Assembly: GCF_028437565.1 (NCBI RefSeq)
Contig: NZ_JAMRYR010000005.1
Location: 62,001 to 126,000 of the forward strand
Length of the DNA stretch: 64,000 nt
Source of the DNA: Actinomyces sp. B33
Lineage (GTDB): Bacteria > Actinomycetota > Actinomycetes > Actinomycetales > Actinomycetaceae
Direction: 5' to 3'
The position numbers were made by a program, and so were the translations under genes. This document shows, one piece after another, positions 8,795 through 10,949 of the stretch. Each line of letters opens with the position of its first letter. Position 1 is the first letter of the stretch. The notes under the pieces were generated by a model that was not told the origin of the DNA, made no database searches, and saw nothing but the letters and a program-made list of their open reading frames with translations.

Positions 8795-8865
8795 TCCGCC
8801 CTGGTGTAACGGCAGCACATGGGTTTTTGGTGCCTTTGGTCCGGGTTCGAGTCCTGGGGGCGGAG
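8795..8865 (+). tRNA. tRNA-Gln (anticodon TTG)
   Basis: A 71-nt cloverleaf: acceptor TCCGCCC (8795-8801) pairs with GGGCGGA (8858-8864), discriminator G8865, and CCA is not encoded. The D arm has GTG...CAC with AACGGC. The anticodon loop is TTTTGGT (8825-8831) with UUG at 8827-8829. The T arm is CCGGG-TTCGAGT-CCTGG (8841-8857). The anticodon stem is unusually weak: TGGGT against GCCTT gives two G-C pairs, two wobble pairs and one T-T mismatch. The position directly before glmU is common in actinobacteria. A CACAAT sequence at 8776-8781 may be the -10 element. Confidence 0.88.
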
Positions 8866-8898
8866 CGATTCGGGAGGCACCGACCACGGAGGACGACG

Positions 8899-9939
8899 AT
8901 GACCCGACCCGCAGCAGTGATTGTCCTGGCCGCGGGCCAGGGGACCCGGATGCGCTCCGACCTGCCCAAAGTGGTCCACCCCGTCGCCGGACTGTCGATG
9001 ATCGGCCACGCCCTGCGGGCCGGGGCGGGCCTGAACCCGGGACGCCTCGTCGCCGTCGTCCGCCACCAGCGCGACCTCGTGGCCGCCGAGATCTCCCGCG
9101 TCGCGCCCGACGCCCTCATCGCCGACCAGGACGAGATCCCCGGGACCGGGCGCGCCGTCCTCTGCGGACTGACGGCCCTCGACGCCGCCGAGGGCCCCGT
9201 CCACGGGACCCTCCTCGTCACCTACGGCGACGTCCCCATGCTGTCGACCGGCACCCTCGCGGCCCTCGTCGACGCCCACGAATCCCAGGGCAACGCCGTC
9301 ACCGTCCTGACGAGCAGAGTCGACGACCCCACCGGCTACGGGCGCATCATCCGCGACGCCACCGGCGTCGTCACCGCCATCGTCGAGCAGCGCGACGCCA
9401 CCGCCGAGCAGGCCGCCATCACCGAGATCAACGCCGGCATCTACGCCTTCGACGCCGACTTCCTGCGCGACGCCCTCGCGTCGGTCGGCTCCGACAACGA
9501 CCAGGGGGAGGTCTACCTCACGGACGTCCTCGCCGCCGCGGCCCCCGTCGGGCGCAGCGCCGGCGCCCTCGAACTGGCCGACGCCTGGCAGTGCCAGGGG
9601 TGCAACGACCGCGCTCAACTGGCCGAACTCGGGGCCGAGCTCAACCGACGGATCTGCCTGGCCCACATGCGCGCCGGCGTGACGATCGTCGACCCCTCCT
9701 CGACGTGGATCGACGTCGACGTCGTCATCGGCGCGGACACGACGATCCTGCCGGGCACGTGCCTGCGCGGGACGACGACGATCGGCTCCGGGTGTGAGAT
9801 CGGTCCCGCCGCTACGCTCAAAGCCGCGCAAGTGGGCGACCGGGCGACGATCCCCACCGCATGGGTGGAGGACGCGGTCGTCCCAACCGATACGATGGTC
9901 CCACCATTCAGCGTCATCGGAGGGGCTGACAGGTCCTGA
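8899..9939 (+). CDS. glmU: GlmU-type UDP-GlcNAc pyrophosphorylase lacking most of the acetyltransferase domain
   Basis: GlmU normally makes UDP-GlcNAc by acetylating glucosamine-1-phosphate and then transferring UMP. Here the uridylyltransferase half is complete: LAAGQGTRM (10-18), Lys24 in LPKVVH, PGTGRAV, GDVPM with Asp110, GYGRI, INAGIYAF and NDQGEVYLTD, then the WQCQGCNDRAQL linker. The protein stops after 346 residues, against about 450-480 usually. Only the first few left-handed beta-helix hexapeptide turns (VVIGADTTILPGT, TIGSGCEIGP) are present, and it ends PPFSVIGGADRS. The acetyl-CoA and glucosamine-1-phosphate catalytic region is missing. ATG at 8899 follows GGAGG. The prs gene begins 38 nt after the stop, so no missing codons follow in another frame. 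Confidence 0.88.
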   Translation: MTRPAAVIVLAAGQGTRMRSDLPKVVHPVAGLSMIGHALRAGAGLNPGRLVAVVRHQRDLVAAEISRVAPDALIADQDEIPGTGRAVLCGLTALDAAEGPVHGTLLVTYGDVPMLSTGTLAALVDAHESQGNAVTVLTSRVDDPTGYGRIIRDATGVVTAIVEQRDATAEQAAITEINAGIYAFDADFLRDALASVGSDNDQGEVYLTDVLAAAAPVGRSAGALELADAWQCQGCNDRAQLAELGAELNRRICLAHMRAGVTIVDPSSTWIDVDVVIGADTTILPGTCLRGTTTIGSGCEIGPAATLKAAQVGDRATIPTAWVEDAVVPTDTMVPPFSVIGGADRS

Positions 9940-9977: not shown

Positions 9978-10949
9978 ATGAGCGGACTGGTCACCAGCGG
10001 AGAGAAGAGCCTCGTCCTCGTGTCTGGGCGCGCGCACCTGGACCTGGCGAATCGGGTGGGCGAGGAGATCGGCTGCGGCGTCTCCCCCGTCACCGCCTAC
10101 GACTTCGCCTCCGGCGAGATCTACGTCCGCTTCAACGAGTCCGTGCGGGGCGCCGACGTGTTCGTCCTCCAGTCCCACACCGGCGACATCAACAAGTGGC
10201 TGATGGAGCAGCTCATCATGATCGATGCCGCCAAGCGGGCGTCGGCCAAGCGCATCACCGCGGTCGCCCCCTTCTACCCGTACTCCCGACAGGACAAGAA
10301 GCACCAGGGCCGCGAGCCGATCTCCGCGCGGCTCGTCGCCGACCTGTTCAAGACGGCCGGCGCCGACCGGGTGATGAGCGTCGACCTGCACGCCTCCCAG
10401 GAGCAGGGCTTCTTCGACGGCCCCGTCGACCACCTCTTCGCCATGCCCGTCCTCGTCGATTACGTGCGCACGCGCGTCGACCTGGCCAACACCGTCATGG
10501 TCTCCCCCGATGCGGGGCGCATCCGCGTCGCCGAGAAGTGGTCGTCCAAGCTCGGCGGATGCCCGCTGGCCTTCGTCCACAAGACGCGCGACACGACCCG
10601 GCCGAACGTCGCGGTCGCCAACCGGGTCGTCGGCGACGTCGCCGGCAAGCAGTGCATCCTCGTCGACGACATGATCGACACGGCCGGCACGATCACCGAG
10701 GCCGTCAAGGTCCTCACCGACGCGGGGGCCTCGAAGGTCATCATCGCCGCCACTCACGGGATCCTCTCCGACCCCGCGGCCCGTCGCCTCTCCGAGTCCG
10801 GCGCCGACGAGGTCGTCATCACGGACACCCTGCCGATCCCCGTGGACAAGCGCTTCGACCGCCTGACGATCCTGTCGATCGCGCCGCTGCTCGCCCGCGC
10901 GATCCGCGAGGTCTTCGACGACGGTTCCGTCACATCCCTCTTCGACTGA
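9978..10949 (+). CDS. prs: Ribose-phosphate pyrophosphokinase (PRPP synthetase)
   Basis: Prs transfers pyrophosphate from ATP to ribose-5-phosphate, giving PRPP for nucleotide, histidine and tryptophan synthesis. The 323-residue protein shows the class I features: SGEIYVRFNESVRGADVFVLQS at the N-terminus, the flexible loop PFYPYSRQDKKHQGREPISA, the metal-binding SVDLHASQEQGFF, and the PRPP-binding loop LVDDMIDTAGT near residues 228-238. AGGGAGGA precedes the ATG at 9978. Location directly after glmU is conserved among Gram-positive bacteria and suggests one operon. Confidence 0.97.
   Translation: MSGLVTSGEKSLVLVSGRAHLDLANRVGEEIGCGVSPVTAYDFASGEIYVRFNESVRGADVFVLQSHTGDINKWLMEQLIMIDAAKRASAKRITAVAPFYPYSRQDKKHQGREPISARLVADLFKTAGADRVMSVDLHASQEQGFFDGPVDHLFAMPVLVDYVRTRVDLANTVMVSPDAGRIRVAEKWSSKLGGCPLAFVHKTRDTTRPNVAVANRVVGDVAGKQCILVDDMIDTAGTITEAVKVLTDAGASKVIIAATHGILSDPAARRLSESGADEVVITDTLPIPVDKRFDRLTILSIAPLLARAIREVFDDGSVTSLFD

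Follow-up and report, generated by a model that had tools for sequence, protein, structure and literature searches.

The window analysed here, a 64,000-nucleotide stretch of an Actinomyces sp. B33 contig (NZ_JAMRYR010000005.1, assembly GCF_028437565.1), contains a short glmU gene between a tRNA gene and a gene that resembles prs. The features are as follows, in window coordinates.

8795..8866 (+), tRNA-Gln (ttg), the upstream neighbour, which marks the glmU slot.
8899..9939 (+), glmU, 346 aa, with a complete uridylyltransferase domain, the linker and the first coils of the left-handed beta helix, but without the acetyltransferase half.
9978..10949 (+), prs (ribose-phosphate pyrophosphokinase, 323 aa; named from its sequence), the downstream neighbour, which starts 38 nt after glmU and was used as the anchor for the glmU slot in relatives, with one match in each of 10 of 11 genomes.

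The protein matches the TIGR01173 (GlmU) model with residues 6-340 on positions 2-329 of 452, at 313.8 bits against a cut-off of 366.85, and the 11 bacterial GlmU models among 25 of 33 matches inspected are all under their cut-offs; Pfam detects the nucleotidyltransferase and one hexapeptide stretch. The best matches in the PDB are M. tuberculosis GlmU, against which the uridylyltransferase residues are conserved, as they are in short relatives. The protein ends at nearly the same place as the 331-residue crystallised E. coli GlmU construct (1fwy, 1fxj), with window residues 5-337 aligning with 6-329; that construct, which is engineered, probably retains uridylyltransferase activity and trimerises. 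We infer that the window gene encodes a monofunctional UDP-GlcNAc pyrophosphorylase (GlcNAc-1-P uridylyltransferase), a natural counterpart of the E. coli construct, in which the short beta-helix stub probably serves only to hold the trimer. A rebuilt acetyltransferase site in the stub and tail, which would make the short protein bifunctional, is highly improbable: most short proteins share a PF or PY pair near the end (11 of 12), but full M. tuberculosis GlmU has a PF at the aligned place too, the match to the model stops at position 329, and the tails vary in length and sequence between genera.

The initial annotation proposed that the missing acetylation is done either by another enzyme or by a second full GlmU. 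We find no second GlmU in this genome (2.28 Mb in 11 contigs, rated 100% complete), where the remaining 6 matches are E 1e-9 or weaker, and a profile of the GlmU acetyltransferase half built from 12 sequences finds nothing in it at E 1e-20. The pattern across the genus speaks against an assembly error or frameshift, as 33 of 35 genomes have a GlmU match ending at model position 306-343, 2 of 35 (G008 and G017; G-numbers denote genomes and L-numbers loci) have none, and 0 of 35 pass the cut-off. Genomes of this genus include, through shared coordinates, Schaalia georgiae (G007 = G231), S. suimastitidis (G033 = G234) and Pauljensenia hongkongensis (G008 = G232); the last also lacks a prs match and is rated 70% complete, so that its assembly is probably incomplete there.

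Across the order, 177 of 198 genomes pass the GlmU cut-off, and 13 of the 21 that do not are in the same family, Actinomycetaceae. The 15 genomes of this family divide into 12 with short GlmU, one (G070) with none, and two (G101 and G171) with full-length GlmU, likewise placed before prs; the G101 gene was split into two matches in one frame, 512.9 bits together. Of the 12 short ones, 7 were seen directly as model matches or ORFs, while G086, G129, G185, G199 and G213 rest on their best E-value (1e-83 to 1e-97) and on the tally of genomes over the cut-off. The other eight of the 21 are three in 250-460 contigs without a match at 1e-50 (G044, G074, G090), three in 270-430 contigs with matches at 1e-103 to 1e-109 (G049, G113, G183), and two of 0.8-0.9 Mb, from a single genus, with only the N-terminal half (G087, G214; model positions up to 240-243). 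The latter two are not among the genomes that match the candidate acetyltransferase described below, and are perhaps dependent on supplied sugars.

We next searched for a candidate for the missing enzyme among GNAT proteins (PF00583 only) in five genomes that lack the acetyltransferase half, which gave 57 matches, of which 50 ORFs were read; the other 7 are second domains, close neighbours or were not retrieved. One family is present in all five genomes at 55-66% identity to each other, and it is the only one in all five at over 55% to the copy in the B33 genome (G000), as the others that hit all five do so at 24-42%. The B33 copy, of 150 residues, lies outside the window at G000:C1:187616-188053 (L059). 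Members are 58-65% identical to this copy between genera, with 31 invariant columns in 70 sequences, and PF00583 is found in 70 of 70. The family is not RimI by the TIGR01575 cut-off (31-38 of 86.4 bits in four members), and a separate RimI-like ORF (L048) exists in the B33 genome. An ORF that looks like TrmD fused to a GNAT domain (L064:577-1932 (+), contig C4 of the B33 genome, 451 aa) has orthologs at 46-50% in G115, G143 and G157, but none among the 8 ORFs read from 10 matches in G070, and was set aside.

With the five sequences as a profile, a search of the order at E 1e-20 finds this GNAT in 15 of 198 genomes: the 13 Actinomycetaceae without the acetyltransferase half, at E 2e-67 or better, and two distant ones (1e-36, 1e-33) with full GlmU. 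The two Actinomycetaceae with full GlmU, G101 and G171, have none. Five of the 13 are the genomes from which the family was picked, such that 8 of 8 are independent. A draw of 396 genomes of the phylum was then searched with a GNAT profile that includes four GNATs of full-GlmU carriers (36 positive), and with the GlmU-half profile (333 positive); 30 genomes have the GNAT only, 6 both, 327 the half only and 33 neither. For genomes at least 90% complete and at most 5% contaminated, these counts are 30, 5, 250 and 16, i.e., the GNAT is in 30 of 46 without the half and 5 of 255 with it. The Fisher odds ratios are 50 and 94, respectively, not corrected for kinship. The 30 fall in ten families, and one of them (G000) was a discovery genome. 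Since 33 of 63 phylum genomes without the half lack the GNAT, 16 of 46 among the good ones, other solutions exist.

The association recurs outside the family. A scan of named genomes counted 561 relatives, and the 80 loci listed come from Actinomycetaceae, Acidimicrobiia, single records of Chloroflexota and Acidobacteriota, and some Micromonosporaceae, Frankia and Streptosporangiaceae. GlmU was sought in the genomes of 45 of these 80 loci: 28 have a match at E 1e-30 that is under the cut-off (25 end at model position 313-345, three at 225-247), 12 have none, and 5 pass. The short ones include Acidimicrobiia and Leptolinea (Chloroflexota), and each of 16 that were retrieved has an ORF of 335-490 aa that matches the window protein and ends after the stub. 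The five with full-length GlmU are Actinoplanes, Paractinoplanes, Dactylosporangium, Frankia and, with two GlmU copies, Scrofimicrobium; together with G379, G547, G575 and G643 in the phylum draw, plus two distant matches (G088 and G103), these show that the GNAT can have another role or be redundant. Scrofimicrobium canadense (G239) holds a truncated GlmU, a full-type GlmU cut by contig ends and a UDPGP-family protein, suggesting a contaminant or a recent gain; it is the only 1 of 23 genomes with the eukaryote-type UDP-GlcNAc pyrophosphorylase family (PF01704), which is also in 0 of 14 control genomes.

A tree of 79 GNATs places the Actinomycetaceae in one clade (100/99), so co-distribution is partly inheritance, Acidimicrobiia and others in another (weakly supported), and the carriers with full GlmU in a third small clade (99/84) that also holds two Streptosporangiaceae MAGs and one more MAG. 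The genome of one of these Streptosporangiaceae (G264) has a short GlmU, so short and full GlmU mix within that clade. Records titled Xylanimonas cellulosilytica strain 352_XCEL and Bifidobacterium breve (MAG) (L109 and L159) group with Schaalia and Ilumatobacteraceae and are probably mislabelled; the genome of L109 shares its GlmU coordinates with genus member G024. No gene neighbourhood ties the GNAT to amino-sugar genes, as GlmU, Prs and GlmM (GlmS was not included) give no blastp hit at E 1e-3 among 4331 ORFs of 88 loci, in a search with a working control. In Acidimicrobiia the neighbours look by eye like GlnD, Nudix and PAC2 proteins. In Trueperella and Arcanobacterium (L099:4645-7964, L100, L101) the GNAT follows pta and ackA, directly behind ackA in L099, and may link acetyl-CoA supply to the cell wall.

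An AlphaFold2 model of the GNAT from 70 sequences (pLDDT 94.4, pTM 0.88) was compared to known structures with Foldseek and VIA-align. The uncharacterised acetyltransferase 2dxq ranks first (Z 18.6); Cryptosporidium GNA1 6yug is tied (Z 18.2, rmsd 1.7 over 138 residues, the lowest rmsd of 50 matches), as is a polyamine acetyltransferase. Arabidopsis and yeast GNA1 and the T. brucei enzyme 3fb3, probably also a GNA1, follow at 16.2-16.4 and Aspergillus GNA1 at 15.3, among aminoglycoside and other acetyltransferases. Identity to eukaryotic GNA1, which is of similar length, is 15-27% in the structural alignments. In sequence, the profile matches 3fb3, 6yug, 4ag7, 3t90, 3cxp and 2huz at E 2e-9 to 2e-5, among 80 chains in all, but the best hit in the PDB is 1z4e, annotated as a transcriptional regulator. 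A motif [IV]ED[VIL][VAC]V, also in the 3fb3 alignment, is in 5 of 50 GNAT ORFs, all of this family. The predicted fold agrees with a glucosamine-phosphate acetyltransferase but does not prove it, and the structural ranking does not single out GNA1.

GlmM (TIGR01455) is over its cut-off in 14 of 15 genomes searched, including all 8 Actinomycetaceae among them that lack the half; the exception is Leptolinea. GGEQSGH is in 14 of 14, while SASHNP is exact in 12 of 14 and RPSGTEP in 8 of 14, the latter missing in short and full genomes alike. Hence GlcN-1-P is probably still made, and the simplest scheme is GlcN-6-P to GlcN-1-P (GlmM), to GlcNAc-1-P (GNAT), to UDP-GlcNAc (short GlmU). Life on salvaged GlcNAc without de novo acetylation is very unlikely: although many Actinomycetaceae are host-associated, salvage alone would not need GlmM, and Acidimicrobiia MAGs, which are not known to be host-bound, share the GNAT, several with short GlmU. 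It is also unlikely that a left-handed beta-helix acetyltransferase other than GlmU does the acetylation while the GNAT has an unrelated conserved role. The B33 genome has three such proteins, L003 (214 aa, NeuD-like, no listed model over its cut-off), L004 (CysE, over cut-off) and L005 (maltose/galactoside O-acetyltransferase-like, none over cut-off), but each matches GlmU over only 41-49 residues, none is found by the GlmU-half profile at E 1e-20, and L004 is accounted for as CysE.

Collectively, we consider it likely, by inference from phylogenetic and structural rather than biochemical evidence, that in most Actinomycetaceae this GNAT-fold enzyme of about 145-150 residues has taken over the N-acetylation that full GlmU performs on GlcN-1-P, an assessment that covers either GlcN-1-P or GlcN-6-P as substrate. 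This supports the first alternative of the initial annotation. We place GlcN-1-P slightly ahead because GlmM is kept, with GGEQSGH, a loop that may bear on substrate choice, in short and full genomes alike. The eukaryotic route, in which GlcN-6-P is acetylated and GlmM or another phosphohexomutase makes GlcNAc-1-P for the short GlmU, is possible but somewhat less favoured. It is suggested by the similarity to eukaryotic GNA1, which acts on GlcN-6-P, and by a second match to the mutase model at E 1e-20 in 12 of 15 genomes, but G157 and G070, with the GNAT and without the GlmU half, show only one mutase match, GlmM itself. A similar pair of parts is known from Mimivirus, in which R689 (255 aa) resembles the N-terminal domain of E. 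coli GlmU and the GNAT L316, described as close to eukaryotic counterparts, acts on both phosphates with a five-fold preference for GlcN-6P over GlcN-1P (PMC9614988). An independent origin reported for Apicomplexa-specific GNA1, a eukaryotic family, shows that GNA1 activity has arisen more than once among GNATs (PMC5838249). In the open literature searched, which also included PMC10522769, and judging by titles and the beginnings of abstracts, we find no paper on GlmU of Actinomycetaceae without its acetyltransferase half or on a GNAT replacing it in bacteria, and none that pairs GlmU with Actinomycetaceae. As GlmU is generally regarded as a conserved bacterial drug target, inhibitors of its acetyltransferase half would miss a family that includes Actinomyces, Schaalia and Trueperella, and these would expose a different target; the proposal also assigns a likely essential function to an unnamed GNAT family.

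A second DISPLACEMENT is suggested by three genomes that seem to have replaced the uridylyltransferase half as well. In G017, G070 and G244 (Buchananella hordeovulneris) tRNA-Gln and prs stand 255, 287 and 109 nt apart (L248, L250 and L249), against 1112 nt in the window, with no GlmU ORF between them and no GlmU match better than E 1e-10 for the N-terminal half elsewhere. All three carry a stand-alone nucleotidylyltransferase of about 270 residues (L274:1186-2127, L275:1016-1825, L276:729-1535), a candidate replacement. It is about as likely as not that there is a second, GlmU-independent way to acetylate in bacterial UDP-GlcNAc synthesis, carried by this GNAT family in Actinomycetaceae, Acidimicrobiia and at least one Chloroflexota, and that in these three genomes (the GNAT was not sought in G017) both halves of the textbook enzyme have been displaced one after the other. 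The nucleotidylyltransferases of G017 and G244 are 56 and 60% identical to that of G070, and the G070 copy, the only one scanned, is nearest to archaeal GlmU-like and AglF models but far below their cut-offs. In the B33 genome, where the same search would have shown it, the three N-terminal-type matches are only distantly related or not matched, and 7 weak hits taken from 7 other genus members are something else.
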